A stretch of 64,000 bases of DNA from Armatimonadota bacterium (GTDB lineage Bacteria > Armatimonadota > Zipacnadia > Zipacnadales > JABUFB01). Both the position numbers and the translations under genes were made by a program. Below, one piece after another: positions 22,690-54,192 of this stretch; the stretch's first letter is position 1; the number at the start of each line of letters is the position of its first letter. The stretch is from contig JABUFB010000008.1 in assembly GCA_013314775.1 (NCBI GenBank), forward strand, positions 372,001-436,000. The letters run 5' to 3'. Below the pieces are notes generated by a model. That model was given only the letters and a program-made list of their open reading frames with translations, did no database searches and was not told the DNA's origin.

Positions 22690-22816
22690 CACAACCAGCG
22701 TACCGGCGGCGATCCGCCGCCCACGGGAAGCCGGTGCAAGTCCGGCGCTGCCCCGCAACTGTAACCCGGCATGGAAGCTGTCTCCAGCCCACCGGGAAGT
22801 CAGGATACCGTGAAAG
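22690..22816 (+). ncRNA. Cobalamin riboswitch
   Basis: The conserved core is clear: GGGAAGCCGGTGCAAGTCCGG at about 22725-22745, the B12-box-type GCTGCCCCGCAACTGTAA from about 22747, and the distal GGGAAGTCAGGATACCG ending near 22810. These match the cobalamin aptamer in order and spacing. It precedes an intrinsic terminator and a homocysteine methyltransferase plus B12 transporter operon, so bound cobalamin should reduce expression of the downstream genes by premature termination. Ends are approximate. Confidence 0.93.
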
Positions 22817-47863: not shown

Positions 47864-48520
47864 TCAGAGGGCCTCCAGTGCGCGAAACAAAGCGCGCATG
47901 CGTTCGGGTGACTTGATCCCCGGTCTCTCCTCCACTCCGCTGGACAGGTCAATGCCGGCCGGACGCACGCTCTGTGCCGCGTGGACAGCATTTTCAGGAC
48001 AAAGGCCCCCGGCAAGAATGACAGGGACATCCAGAGCCGAGACCACTCTCGCAGCGACATCCCAGTCGCAGGTCAACCCGGTGCCTCCGGACAGGCCGCC
48101 CACGGAGGCATCCAGGAGGACAGCGTCGGCGCCTGAGTGGGCAGCCATGGACGCGGTGGCAATTGTCTGCTCGAGGGCATGCGAGGCCTCCACCCCAACC
48201 ACCCGCCATATCGCCAGGTTGGGAAACTGACGCTTCAGATTCCGCATTGCGCATGCGGTCTCGGACCCGTGTAGCTGCACCGCGGCCGGGGCTGCGGTCT
48301 CGACTAGCCGGCGCAGGTCGTCGCGAGGCATGTCCACTACCACGCAGACGAGGGCTCCCGGGGCAGCTTTGGAGAGCTCGGCAGCCCGCGAAATCGTGAC
48401 CGTGCGCGGCGAGCGCGGGACATCCACCACGCAGCCGACGTACCGCGCGCCCAGCGAGAGAGCCAGCCGGATGTCTTGGGGGCGGGTCATGCCGCAGATC
48501 TTGACGAAAGGATGCTGCAT
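47864..48520 (-). CDS. trpF: Phosphoribosylanthranilate isomerase
   Basis: 218 residues from the ATG at 48518-48520. The active-site segments are VKICGMTRPQDIRLA with the catalytic Cys, VQLHGSE, LLDASVGGLSGGTG with the catalytic Asp, and LAGGLCPENA. It isomerises PRA to CdRP, the third step of tryptophan synthesis. It is divergent from the trpL-E-G-D-B-A operon, so the pathway is split between two transcripts. trpC, which uses its product, is not in the window. Confidence 0.93.
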   Translation of the reverse strand: MQHPFVKICGMTRPQDIRLALSLGARYVGCVVDVPRSPRTVTISRAAELSKAAPGALVCVVVDMPRDDLRRLVETAAPAAVQLHGSETACAMRNLKRQFPNLAIWRVVGVEASHALEQTIATASMAAHSGADAVLLDASVGGLSGGTGLTCDWDVAARVVSALDVPVILAGGLCPENAVHAAQSVRPAGIDLSSGVEERPGIKSPERMRALFRALEAL

Positions 48521-48608: not shown

Positions 48609-48638
48609 TTGACTCCTGATCGCCCTCTGTGCTATCGT
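48609..48638 (+). promoter_or_regulatory. Promoter of the trp operon
   Basis: TTGACT (48609-48614), 18-base spacer, TATCGT (48633-48638). A start would fall near 48645, only a few bases before the trpL ATG, so the leader peptide mRNA may be nearly leaderless. Confidence 0.5.
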
Positions 48639-48647
48639 CCGCCTATC

Positions 48648-48707
48648 ATGCAGACGCGAGAATTGCGAACAGGACTTGGCTACTGGTGGTGGCGCTGGAA
48701 CCCCTGA
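48648..48707 (+). CDS. trpL: trp operon leader peptide (TrpL)
   Basis: 19 codons. Trp residues at 13, 14, 15 and 17 (Trp-Trp-Trp-Arg-Trp) are followed by Asn-Pro and a stop. Four Trp codons in five positions just before a hairpin are the mark of ribosome-mediated attenuation: when charged tRNA-Trp is scarce the ribosome stalls and the downstream terminator does not form. Its first half has no other significance. A segment inside the Trp codons (GGCGC, 48691-48695) can pair with 48720-48724, as expected for the 1:2 hairpin. Confidence 0.9.
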   Translation: MQTRELRTGLGYWWWRWNP

Positions 48708-48762
48708 CCCTGGGGCCCCGCGCCTGTGTCTGCATTCAGAGCATTCGAATCACACACAAAGG

Positions 48763-48797
48763 CCGTGAGCATCCCCCGGGGGAGCTCACGGTTTTTT
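48763..48797 (+). terminator. trp operon attenuator terminator
   Basis: 8-base stem (48763-48770 with 48784-48791), then six T residues (48792-48797). A CCCCC/GGGGG inner segment may extend it. It lies between trpL and trpE, 77 bases before the trpE start. Antiterminator pairing was not resolved by eye. Confidence 0.88.
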
Positions 48798-48873
48798 CGC
48801 ATCTGCGCGCGGAAACCATGAGAACCACCGGAGGGAACGGCGGCCGAACCGTCCCGAAAGGTGGACACAACTC

Positions 48874-50373
48874 ATGGTCACGCCCGAGCTTCCCGAGTTC
48901 CTCGAACGCGCCAGGCAAGGCGACCTGGTACCGGTCTACCGGGAGATCATCGCCGATCTGGAGACCCCCGTCTCGGCCTTCCTGAAGCTCCAGCAGTCCG
49001 GCAATGGCTACGCGTTCCTGCTGGAGAGTGTGGCCGGAGGTGAGAGCGTCGCCCGGTTCTCTTACCTGGCCGTCTCCCCCGCCCAGGTGTTTATCAGCAA
49101 AGGTCGCACCGCCACCATCATCCGTGACGGCGTGGCCGAAGAGCGCGCGATCCCCGAAGGCCAGGATCCCCTTCACATTCTGCGCGAGCTGCTGTCTGAG
49201 AGCACCTTCGTCCCCATCCCCGGCTGGTCGCGCTTCGACGGCGGCGCCGTCGGCTACATGGGCTACGACCTGGTGCGGTTCTTTGAGGATCTGCCGGATC
49301 AGAACCCCGACGACCTCGACCTGCCCGATTGTCAGTTCATGTTCACCGACACGCTGGTGATCTTCGATCACGTGATGCACCGCATACGGGTCCTTGCGAA
49401 TGCGAAGATCAAGGGTGATCCGCAGGAGGCTTACTGGGAGGCCAGAGAGCGGATCGACAGCGTGGTGGACCAGCTTATGCAGCCCCTGGAGCGCCCTGAC
49501 GTGCCACCTGCAAGGCATCCGATCCCCGACGATCCATCGGCGCTGCCGTCCACGATGACCAGGTCCGCCCACCGTGAGGCAGTCGCGAGGGCCAAGGAGT
49601 ACATCGTCGCGGGCGATATCATCCAGGTGGTCCTGTCGCACCGCATGAGCGCGAAGGTGGACCTCCCCCCCTTCCAGCTCTACCGGGCTCTGCGGGCCAT
49701 CAATCCATCCCCATACATGTTCTACCTGTCCTTCGGCGACCTGAAGCTCATTGGTGCGTCGCCCGAGATTCTGGTGACTGAGGAGAAAGGGCAGGTCGTC
49801 ACTCGGCCCATTGCCGGAACGCGCCGTCGCGGGAGCACCCCCGAGGAAGACGCGCGGCTCGAGGAGGAGCTTCTCGCCGACCAGAAAGAACGAGCGGAGC
49901 ATATCATGCTGGTGGACCTGCATCGCAATGACCTCGGCCGGGTCTGCGAGCCCGGAAGCGTTGTGGTGGATGACCTCATGGTCGTCGAGCGCTACAGCCA
50001 TGTGATGCATATCGTGAGCAATGTCCGCGGCAAGCTCATGCCCGACCGTGACCAGTTCGACGTACTCCGCGCAACCTTTCCGGCGGGCACACTATCGGGC
50101 GCGCCAAAGATACGGGCGATGGAGATCATCGAGGAACTGGAGCCCGTGAAACGCGGACCGTACGGCGGCGCGATCGGTTACTTTAGCTTCTCCGGGGCCA
50201 TGGACACCTGTATCACCCTACGCACAATCGTGATGAAGGGCAGTACCTGCTACTTCCAGGCCGGCGGGGGCATCGTGGCCGATTCTGAGCCAGATGCGGA
50301 GTATCAGGAGACGCTGATCAAGGCGGGGGCATTGCTGGACGCTCTGCGACTGGCACAGCGCGGGGAGTTGTAA
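48874..50373 (+). CDS. trpE: Anthranilate synthase component I
   Basis: 499 residues. The chorismate-binding core is clear: [40 protein letters not shown], then [17 protein letters not shown] and [13 protein letters not shown]. The N-terminal LLESVAGGE near 50 fits the Trp feedback site. It forms anthranilate from chorismate with ammonia from TrpG. It is the first structural gene after the attenuator, with trpG 41 bases later. Likely regulated by attenuation and by feedback inhibition. Confidence 0.97.
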
Positions 50374-50414: not shown

Positions 50415-50993
50415 ATGATCCTGGTCATCGACAATTACGACTCATTCACCTACAACCTGGTGCAATACCTCGGCGAGTTAGGGCAGGAGTGTGCTGTCTA
50501 CCGCAATGACAAGATCACGGTGGACCAGTGCATGGAGATGGCCCCCGACAGCATTGTCATCTCGCCCGGTCCCTGCACCCCCCTGGAAGCCGGCATCTCC
50601 TGCGAACTCATCCAGGCCGCAGCGGGGAAGATCCCGCTCTTGGGAGTCTGCCTGGGCCATCAGTCCATCGGGCAGGTCTTCGGTGGCGACGTGGTGCGCG
50701 CAATGCGGCCCATGCACGGCAAGACTTCGCAGATCCAGCACGACGGTCGCGGCGTGTTCACCGGTCTCCCCAACCCATTCGAGGCGGTGCGGTATCACTC
50801 GCTCATCGTCAAACGCGAGACCCTGCCGGACTGCCTGGAGGTTTCGGCAGAGACCTTCGGGGGGGAGATCATGGGACTGCGGCACAAGGAGTACCTCGTG
50901 GAAGGCGTGCAGTTTCACCCGGAATCGATCATGACCCAGTGTGGCAAGGATCTGCTGGCCAATTTCGTGCGAATGGCCGCCGGCGCGAAATAG
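50415..50993 (+). CDS. trpG: Anthranilate synthase component II (glutamine amidotransferase)
   Basis: 192 residues. The class I amidotransferase triad is visible: [11 protein letters not shown] with the catalytic Cys, and [10 protein letters not shown] with the His and Glu. The N-terminus [22 protein letters not shown] is typical of TrpG/PabA. It supplies ammonia to TrpE and might also serve a PabB elsewhere. It is 41 bases after trpE and 108 before trpD. Confidence 0.95.
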
Positions 50994-51101: not shown

Positions 51102-52127
51102 ATGTTGAGCCGTTACCTGCATAAGACGGTAGACGGGCAATCCCTCACCCGGAGCGAAGCCTACGAAGCGCTGAGCGCCATCATGGAAGGCCAAGCGACG
51201 GATGTTCAGATCGCTGGATTTTTGGTTGCCCTGCGAATGAAAGGCGAGAGCCCCGACGAGGTGGCGGGCTTCGCCCAGGCAATGCGCGACCACGCGGTGA
51301 AGGTCCCCACTCGGCAGGAGGGCGTGGTGGATACCTGCGGTACAGGCGGCGATGCGCTGGACACCTTCAACATCTCCACCTGCGCCGCGTTCGTGGCGGC
51401 GGGAGCAGGCGTGCCCATCGCAAAGCATGGCAACCGGGCGGTTTCCAGCCGTTGCGGGAGCGCTGACGTTCTCCAGGCGCTCGGGGTAAACCTGGACATC
51501 ACCCCCGAACAAGTAGGGGCTTGCATTGATGAGATCGGAGTGGGCTTTCTTTTCGCCCCGAAGCTGCACCCCGCCATGCGCTACGCAGTCGGGCCACGCA
51601 AGGAGCTCGGCATGCGCACCGTCTTCAATATCCTGGGCCCGCTTACCAATCCCGCCGGCGCCACCCGGCAGGTACTTGGGGTCTTCTCGCTCCCAGCGGC
51701 GCGTCTTGTCGCGGGGGCATTGAGCGCTATGGGCACCGAGCTTGCGCTTGTGGTGCACGGGGAGGACGGGCTGGACGAGATCTCTACGGTAGGGGCCACT
51801 CATGTGCTGGAAGTACGCAGCGGACAGGTAAGCGAAAGACTGCTCACGCCGGACGAACTCGGAATCGCCCGGGCCTGCGGCGGAGATCTGGCCGGCGGGG
51901 GTCCGGAGGAATCTGCGGGCATTCTGCGCAGGGTACTTTCCGGAGACCGAGGGCCGGCGCGCGACATTACCCTCCTCAACGCCGCAGCGGCGATTTACGT
52001 GGGCGGGAAAGCCGCCGACCTGCAGGAGGGCCTGGTGCTGGCCGCTGATTCCATCGACCAGGGCAAGGCGATGGCGAAACTGGAAGGACTGGTGACGATG
52101 ACCGCCGGGATGAGCCCGGACCAATGA
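51102..52127 (+). CDS. trpD: Anthranilate phosphoribosyltransferase
   Basis: 341 residues; AAGGAGGG lies shortly before the ATG. The PRPP loop [40 protein letters not shown] is intact in three parts, with the family [22 protein letters not shown] and [14 protein letters not shown] follow. It joins anthranilate to PRPP. It is fourth in the operon after trpL, trpE and trpG, and ends just before trpB. Confidence 0.96.
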
Positions 52128-52180
52128 CGCACTCGGGCAAGACGGACAAGCATGCAGACCAAATGCGAGGATGTGACACG

Positions 52181-53374
52181 ATGCCAAACACCACGAAAGG
52201 GCGCTTCGGACGCTTTGGCGGCCAGTATGTGCCCGAGACCCTCATGGGCGTCCTGCGGGAGCTTGAGGACGCCTACGACAAGGTCAAGGACGATCCTGAG
52301 TTCCACGCGGAGTTCGAGACTATTCTCCGCCAGTACGTGGGGCGGCCCTCTCCCCTGTATCGCGCCGACCGGCTGAGCGAAAGAGTAGGCTGCAAGGTCT
52401 ATCTGAAGCGCGAAGACCTCAACCACACCGGGGCACACAAGATCAACAACACAATCGGACAGGGGCTTCTGGCAAAGCGCATGGGCAAGCGCAGGCTTAT
52501 CGCGGAGACCGGAGCCGGGCAACACGGCGTGGCCACGGCCACTGTCGCCGCGCTGTTTGGTATGGAGTGTGTGGTCTATATGGGGGAGGAAGACATCCGC
52601 AGGCAGGAGCTGAACTGTTTCAAGATGGAACTCCTGGGAGCCACCGTGTCCCCGGTGACTTCCGGTACCCGCACCCTGAAAGACGCAATCAACGAGGCCA
52701 TCCGCGACTGGATGACCAATGTGGCCGACACTTTCTACTTGTTCGGCACCGTCGCCGGTCCGCACCCCTACCCCACTATGGTCCGGGATTTCCAGTCTAT
52801 TGTGGGCCGCGAGACCCGGGCGCAGTGTTTTGACCAGGAGGGTCGTTTGCCGGACCACCTCTTCGCCTGCGTGGGCGGAGGATCCAATGCAATGGGGCTG
52901 TTCTACCCTTTCATCGAAGACGAGACGGTTCAGATGCATGGTGTCGAGGCCGCGGGCCGGGGCATCTCGACGGGCCACCATGCAGCCCCGCTCAATGACG
53001 GAAGTTTCGGAGTGCTGCACGGCGCCGCGCAGTACATGATGCAGGACGCGGACGGCCAGGTTGCCCCGGCGCATTCCGTGGCCGCGGGACTTGACTACCC
53101 GGGGGTCGGCCCGGAGCACTGCTATCTGCGCGACATCGGCCGTGCCGTCTATCATGCGGTCACGGACACGGAAGCATTGGCTGCCTTCCAGGAGCTCACT
53201 CGTCTCGAGGGGATCATCCCGGCGCTGGAAAGCTCGCACGCCGTGGCGCAAGTGCTGAAGATGGCCGGGCAATTCGAGCCGGAGGAGATCGTTGTCATCA
53301 ACCTGTCAGGGCGCGGGGATAAGGACTGTTACGAGGTCCGGCGCCTGCTCAGCGAAGGAATGGGGGAAAACTGA
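52181..53374 (+). CDS. trpB: Tryptophan synthase beta chain
   Basis: 397 residues from the ATG at 52181, with AGGA 9 bases upstream. An upstream ATG at 52124 overlaps the trpD stop by 4 bases and would add 19 residues; I prefer the later one because normal TrpB begins about here ([13 protein letters not shown]). The PLP lysine is in [15 protein letters not shown]. The glycine-rich phosphate cup is [10 protein letters not shown]. The first 5 residues overlap nothing. TrpB condenses indole with serine. Its stop overlaps the trpA start. Confidence 0.95.
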
Positions 53375-54192
53375 TGACCCTAGCACAGGCTTTCCAGAAA
53401 GCAGCGGACGAGAACCGCGCAGCCCTGATTGTGTACGTCGCCGCGGGAGACCCGGACCTGGAGCACACCGAAGCGATCGTAAAGACCCTCGCGCAATCCG
53501 GCGCAGATATCGTGGAGTTGGGTATCCCCTATTCCGACCCCATCGCCGACGGGCCCACAATTCAGGAAGCCGGGCAGCGCGCTCTCGCAGCAGGCACCAC
53601 GGTTCAGGGCGTGTTGGATTGTGCTCGCCGAGTTCGGGCGGCTACCGACATTCCCTTCGTCATCATGACCTGCTTCAACCCGGTGGTACAGTACGGACTC
53701 GAGCGCTTTGCACGGGCCGCCGTTGAGTGCGGTGTACAGGGCGTCCTTCTTTCGGACCTGCCCGTCGACGAATCCGGCGACTGGAATAAGATCGCCCGGT
53801 CTGCAGGCCTGGACACCGTCTACCTGGCTGCTCCCACCACGGAACCAGAGCGGCGCCGGCTGATCTGCCGGTCGAGCACAGGATTTGTGTACGTCATATC
53901 CCGCCCGGGCACCACGGGGGTGCGGCAGGATCTGCCCGAGGGGCTGCCTGCCTTGCTGGCCGAACTCAGACAGATCGCGACGTCCCCGATTGCCGTAGGC
54001 TTTGGCATCAGCACCCCGGCTCATGTGCGAGCCGTCGCTGAAATGGCAGACGGGGCCATAGTGGGCAGTGCGGTCGTGGATGTGATCGGCCGACACGGCA
54101 AAGGCCCCGGTCTGCTTCCCGCCATCAGCCGGCTTGTTGAACAGCTCGCCGCCGCTACGGCAAGAACCCCAGGCACGACCGCCGATCGGTGA
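53374..54192 (+). CDS. trpA: Tryptophan synthase alpha chain
   Basis: 272 residues. The catalytic Glu and Asp are in VELGIPYSDPIADGPTIQ (Glu in the VELG segment, Asp in SDP), and the phosphate-binding glycine segments GFGIS and SAVVD are near the C-terminus. It cleaves indole-glycerol phosphate to indole and G3P, which channels to TrpB. Its ATG overlaps the trpB stop (TGATG). It ends the visible operon. Confidence 0.96.
   Translation: MTLAQAFQKAADENRAALIVYVAAGDPDLEHTEAIVKTLAQSGADIVELGIPYSDPIADGPTIQEAGQRALAAGTTVQGVLDCARRVRAATDIPFVIMTCFNPVVQYGLERFARAAVECGVQGVLLSDLPVDESGDWNKIARSAGLDTVYLAAPTTEPERRRLICRSSTGFVYVISRPGTTGVRQDLPEGLPALLAELRQIATSPIAVGFGISTPAHVRAVAEMADGAIVGSAVVDVIGRHGKGPGLLPAISRLVEQLAAATARTPGTTADR

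Follow-up and report, generated by a model that had tools for sequence, protein, structure and literature searches.

Position 48609–48873 in the window (the whole 64,000-nucleotide stretch of DNA that was analysed) covers the sequence from a promoter to the start codon of trpE, beyond which the genes trpEGDBA follow. The host is a member of the Armatimonadota whose genome assembly is 6.1 Mb in size and 98% complete. The question raised by this locus is whether a short tryptophan-rich reading frame and the hairpins that follow it control the operon by ribosome-mediated attenuation, and whether that reading frame is translated almost without a leader. As judged from sequence comparison and predicted folding, this stretch very probably (probability of about 0.87) controls the trpEGDBA operon as a ribosome-mediated transcription attenuator.

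The trp locus

The tryptophan genes of the window are as follows.

47864–48520, minus strand: trpF, phosphoribosylanthranilate isomerase, divergent from trpL
48874–50373, plus strand: trpE, anthranilate synthase component I (TIGR00564, 580.8 bits, above cut-off)
50415–50993, plus strand: trpG, anthranilate synthase component II (TIGR00566, above cut-off)
51102–52127, plus strand: trpD, anthranilate phosphoribosyltransferase (TIGR01245, above cut-off)
52124–53374, plus strand: trpB, tryptophan synthase beta (TIGR00263, above cut-off)
53374–54192, plus strand: trpA, tryptophan synthase alpha (TIGR00262, above cut-off)

The divergent orientation of trpF, which the first-pass annotation had pointed out, is also found in a congener (G001), and a single copy of trpF was found in the genome. 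The same annotation had reported trpC as absent; this is true of the window alone, and elsewhere in the genome the suggested search located trpC on another contig (G000:C4:31562-32302), directly 3′ of a second trpD-like gene (TIGR01245, above cut-off) with which it forms a trpD2-trpC pair (L174:6238-8366, G000:C4). A wider leader-peptide regulon was considered and is unsupported: a search ahead of trpD2-trpC gave no Trp-rich short leader, and the HisG stretch showed no His-rich one.

Promoter and leader peptide

Two features occupy the first part of the leader region.

48609–48638, plus strand: sigma-70-like promoter, TTGACT-18-TATCGT, with a predicted transcript start at about 48645–48648
48648–48707, plus strand: trpL, 19-residue leader-peptide reading frame MQTRELRTGLGYWWWRWNP, without a Shine–Dalgarno sequence

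The reading frame lies directly upstream of the trp genes, opens with ATG at 48648 and closes with TGA at 48705–48707. Its codons 13, 14, 15 and 17 are TGG (48684–48692 and 48696–48698), which bears out the earlier count of four Trp codons in five positions. The promoter is the sole sigma-70-like match in 800 bp, where 0.1 would be expected, and nine bases separate the end of its −10 hexamer from the trpL ATG. The usual distance to +1 falls on base 48645, three bases 5′ of the ATG, and this prediction agrees with the start originally proposed. Judged by promoter position alone, the 5′ end of the message would thus fall within a few bases of the start codon, with a predicted 5′ UTR of about 0–3 nt, and no Shine–Dalgarno sequence precedes trpL in the window sequence.

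The same arrangement recurs across the phylum. In 28 of 34 attenuators the trpL start that was chosen has a promoter with at least nine of 12 matches just 5′ of it, compared with 0.5% of random windows, the choice of start codon in the relatives being partly subjective. The −10 hexamer lies 6–14 bases from the trpL start in most Armatimonadota clades and 17–24 bases in others; with a start 7 bases past the −10 hexamer, most Armatimonadota trpL messages would have a predicted 5′ UTR of 0–7 bases. Since a promoter 6–14 bases before the ATG recurs in most clades, the near-leaderless trpL appears from these sequences to be a conserved design in Armatimonadota, and the earlier suggestion of such a message is well supported by anatomy as well as by phylum-wide conservation. 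It is not new in kind, having precedents in Sinorhizobium and Streptomyces: the S. meliloti rnTrpL transcript begins at the trpL ATG (PMC7298713) and S. lividans trpL1 is leaderless (PMC8079986).

The start region of trpL (AUGCAGACGCG, 48648–48658) is complementary to a segment beyond its stop codon (48720–48738). Pairing of trpL codons 1–8 with the post-stop segment gave Stouffer Z values of −5.1 and −4.4, is seen in only some members of the order and only half of it survives in the congener; it was set aside as a lead only. Such pairing might limit re-initiation at trpL.

Terminator and alternative structures

Four predicted RNA structures follow or overlap the end of trpL.

48691–48724, plus strand: putative 1:2 protector hairpin (GGCGC...GCGCC) that encloses the trpL stop codon, with a predicted energy of −19.5 kcal/mol
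48712–48776, plus strand: candidate 2:3 antiterminator of −21.7 kcal/mol, formed between GGGG, GCGCC and GUGU stretches and the terminator's 5′ arm
48758–48797, plus strand: 3:4 intrinsic terminator, hairpin GGCCGTGAGCATCCCCCGGGGGAGCTCACGG with a U6 tract, −22.6 to −25.5 kcal/mol by folding
48825–48864, plus strand: second hairpin, −18.9 kcal/mol, without a U-tract, covering the trpE Shine–Dalgarno sequence AAAGGTGG (48857–48864)

The stem with six T that had been noted after trpL is a complete intrinsic terminator between the leader reading frame and the first structural gene, with its hairpin at about 48758–48794 and its T6 at 48792–48797. It lies about 50 bases past trpL, and trpE begins 76 bases past the U6 hairpin. 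A simple terminator scan missed it, probably owing to a one-base bulge, and it was recovered by folding.

In the proposed mechanism, transcription would start at the trpL AUG or a few bases before it, as the promoter implies, and trpL would be translated without a Shine–Dalgarno sequence by a ribosome trailing the RNA polymerase. With ample charged tRNA-Trp, a ribosome at the stop codon would cover the start of segment 2, allowing the 3:4 hairpin and its U6 tract to terminate transcription before trpE. Under a shortage of Trp-tRNA, the ribosome would be expected to stall within W13–W17 and block the 1:2 hairpin; segment 2 could then pair with the terminator's 5′ arm, and the polymerase would read through. 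In the absence of translation the 1:2 and 3:4 hairpins would both form and transcription would end.

The switch itself is the least secure part of this scheme in the window. RNA folding, which the first-pass annotation had proposed as a check, was run with the region under the ribosome masked, and the 2:3 helix of −21.7 kcal/mol arises when the ribosome sits on W15 or W17; an alternative fold can thus be drawn, but it is no better than that of shuffled sequence. The gain in antiterminator pairing is about −8.7 to −8.8 kcal/mol and is matched by approximately one quarter of the shuffles (z of about −0.6), whereas the E. coli trp leader reaches z = −4.4 in the same test, so that the window's own antiterminator may be regarded as possible, not as proven. 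Once the ribosome has moved on, the gain of −8.8 kcal/mol shrinks to a value that varies with the assumed footprint, from −6.9 to −0.1 kcal/mol, and with the ribosome at the stop codon it is only partly lost. The description of the locus as a `textbook' attenuator consequently overstates the case for the window itself: anatomy and conservation in the phylum support an attenuator well, but the 2:3 pairing of the window is weak.

Conservation

A combined signature, defined as a short reading frame having three or more Trp within a run of six codons and an intrinsic terminator 20–260 bases downstream, was found in 31 of 89 sampled Armatimonadota trpE upstream regions, compared with none of 712 dinucleotide shuffles and none of the 89 reverse strands. 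The trpL–terminator matches span about 16 Armatimonadota families. No trpL was found within 1.5 kb in another member of the window's family (G003), nor was one found in several members of its order. Outside Armatimonadota, the same scan matches six named loci upstream of trpE, which belong to Poribacteria (L033), Spirochaetales (L063) and Deltaproteobacteria (L067, L085, L088 and L109).

At closer range, the segment from Gly9 of trpL to the U-tract differs between the window and the congener at three of 127 sites, compared with 53 of 600 (8.8%) in trpE (p = 0.01), while the DNA just upstream of the −35 hexamer differs at 68 of 100 sites. The promoter carries two changes in 30 positions, the terminator (48761–48798) is identical, the trpL ATG and the Trp cluster are kept, and codons 1–8 of trpL differ at ten of 24 bases. 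From these site differences, the promoter, Trp cluster and terminator have been kept and the N-terminal half of the leader peptide has not. Among close relatives, the congener alone has the same leader.

Predicted antiterminators in relatives

Strong alternative pairing is present in many relatives. Across 25 attenuators, the energy that segment 2 gains by taking up the terminator's 5′ arm exceeds that of shuffles with a Stouffer Z of −13.5, a value inflated by the non-independence of related genomes; about half of the 25 have z below −2.3, and in most the gain falls once the ribosome is moved to the stop codon. Six loci (L006, L009, L014, L023, L025 and L026) gain 18–25 kcal/mol with z below −5 and show a steep fall with the ribosome at the stop, and five others (L031, L128, L138, L167 and L169) have no significant antiterminator in the simple folding test. 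In a seven-member alignment of family f6, a 22-pair antiterminator keeps 94% of cells paired, and the whole structure tested has 95% paired compared with 32–44% for slid structures. Compensatory changes are few (three pairs, a number reached by 38 of 500 shuffles), so that the support in this family comes from conserved pairing more than from covariation.

Many members of families f3, f4 and f6 carry two hairpins after trpL, the tandem arrangement being found upstream of trpE in L006, L009, L014, L015, L016, L017, L019–L026 and L028. The 3′ arm of the first hairpin can pair with the 5′ arm of the second (4:5 pairing), with a mean of −21.2 kcal/mol compared with −17.4 kcal/mol when arms are swapped between clades. 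In some clades swapped pairs are as good as the native ones, so generic terminator sequence accounts for part of this complementarity. In f3 the 4:5 pairing is far stronger than the reverse 3:6 pairing, and among the f6 members L017, L019, L020, L021 and L024 lack a U-tract at the first hairpin. When partial transcripts of L022, L024 and L014 were folded with the ribosome stalled at the first Trp codon, 2:3 pairing appeared together with 4:5 pairing; moving the ribosome to the stop gave 3:4 pairing in L022 and L024. The picture is not uniform: by minimum energy, 4:5 pairing persists in the stop state in L020, L021 and L014.

These folds lead us to propose, tentatively and at somewhat less than even odds, that sister families of the window's order use a two-hairpin relay. 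Stalling would favour 2:3 pairing, segment 4 would be freed and would capture segment 5, the 5′ arm of the second terminator, and both terminators would fail; in one family the first hairpin, its U-tract mostly lost, would have no role other than switching the second terminator, and the window's genus would represent a single-terminator form. The simpler reading is that these are tandem terminators of similar composition. No description of the relay layout was found in the literature searched.

Alternative explanations

The weakness of the window's antiterminator (z of about −0.6), together with the several members of the order in which no trpL was found, could indicate a degenerate attenuator, in which trpL and the terminator are still present but the antiterminator has decayed in the genus, leaving a fixed level of early termination. 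We consider this unlikely given that the Trp cluster is intact and that the sequence from Gly9 to the U-tract is near invariant between congeners whose trpE genes differ by 8.8%. The hairpin at 48825–48864 could instead point to control at the level of translation: at −18.9 kcal/mol it covers AAAGGTGG, it is kept in the congener, and translation of trpL or pairing of the leader might open it to expose the trpE Shine–Dalgarno sequence. Its recurrence is known from that congener alone, however, and a complete intrinsic terminator stands between it and trpL, which makes this explanation highly improbable.

Action in trans by the terminated leader RNA or its peptide, as for rnTrpL and peTrpL of S. 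meliloti, could add to attenuation. A near-leaderless small mRNA ending at a terminator resembles the S. meliloti case (PMC7298713), and trpC is encoded apart from the operon; yet no direct evidence for such action was found, and the free variation of trpL codons 1–8 between congeners (ten of 24 bases) indicates that the peptide is unconserved in at least its N-terminal half, so we regard this as very unlikely. It is scarcely credible that TRAP, TrpR or a T-box regulates the operon with trpL as a bystander. The genome does contain T-boxes upstream of other genes, with five matches (L178–L182, G000), two of them over the gathering score, preceding genes that read from their translations as valS, ilvD, two citramalate/isopropylmalate-synthase-like genes and pheS. 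Within the sensitivity of the searches, however, profile searches of the genome gave no match for TRAP (PF02081) or TrpR (PF01371), and no T-box covariance-model match (RF00230) was obtained at the trp locus, where Rfam gave no meaningful match at either gathering or permissive thresholds. T-boxes and a putative leader-peptide attenuator therefore coexist in one genome. Elsewhere in the window, a cobalamin riboswitch (RF00174, 55.3 bits) is located at 22724–22810 on the plus strand.

Comparison with known attenuators

In E. coli, trpL is preceded by a longer 5′ UTR that contains a ribosome-binding site, and the operon carries a TrpR operator. The leader described here shares with the E. coli attenuator the tandem Trp codons, an intrinsic terminator before trpE and, as a candidate, an alternative 2:3 pairing in the same masking computation, but differs in having no Shine–Dalgarno sequence, a predicted 5′ UTR of about 0–3 nt, no TrpR gene in the genome, no Rfam match and a statistically weaker antiterminator. 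The trpLE(G) system of S. meliloti is similar in its transcript start at or beside the trpL AUG, in the absence of transcriptional repression and in its split trp genes (PMC7298713), although it belongs to another phylum and the window has trpE, G, D, B and A in one operon. The trp attenuators of S. lividans (trpL1) and other Actinobacteria are similar in that the leader peptide, which has three Trp codons, is leaderless, and in the hairpins and U-rich stretch that precede trpE (PMC8079986; PMC1262725); here the phylum and the leader-peptide sequence differ, and the S. lividans trpE is monocistronic. The gammaproteobacterial rimP-leader, with two tandem terminators of which the upstream one has a potential anti-terminator (PMC2965389), is comparable only to the tandem form of the window's relatives, and its description includes no amino-acid sensing by a leader peptide.

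According to a 2010 study, its own Firmicutes case was the first leader-peptide system to be demonstrated beyond Proteobacteria and Actinobacteria (PMC2965389), in agreement with the earlier remark that attenuators are little documented beyond those two groups. No paper naming Armatimonadota in connection with attenuation was found, which is weak evidence given that subscription literature lay mostly outside the search. The element in the window is thus a known principle in a phylum where it is little documented, and it is widespread in Armatimonadota.

If the main reading is correct, an uncultured Armatimonadota bacterium would sense its own tryptophan supply through the speed of a ribosome over four Trp codons. 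The combination of trpL, a near-leaderless promoter and a terminator recurs across a deep and mostly uncultured phylum, and the genome that carries it here also has T-boxes for other amino acids. Should the tandem-hairpin form of the relatives prove real, it would be a novel means of linking two terminators to a single sensor. Recurrence on the scale of a phylum lets one ask how often attenuators arise anew and how fast RNA switches are rebuilt.
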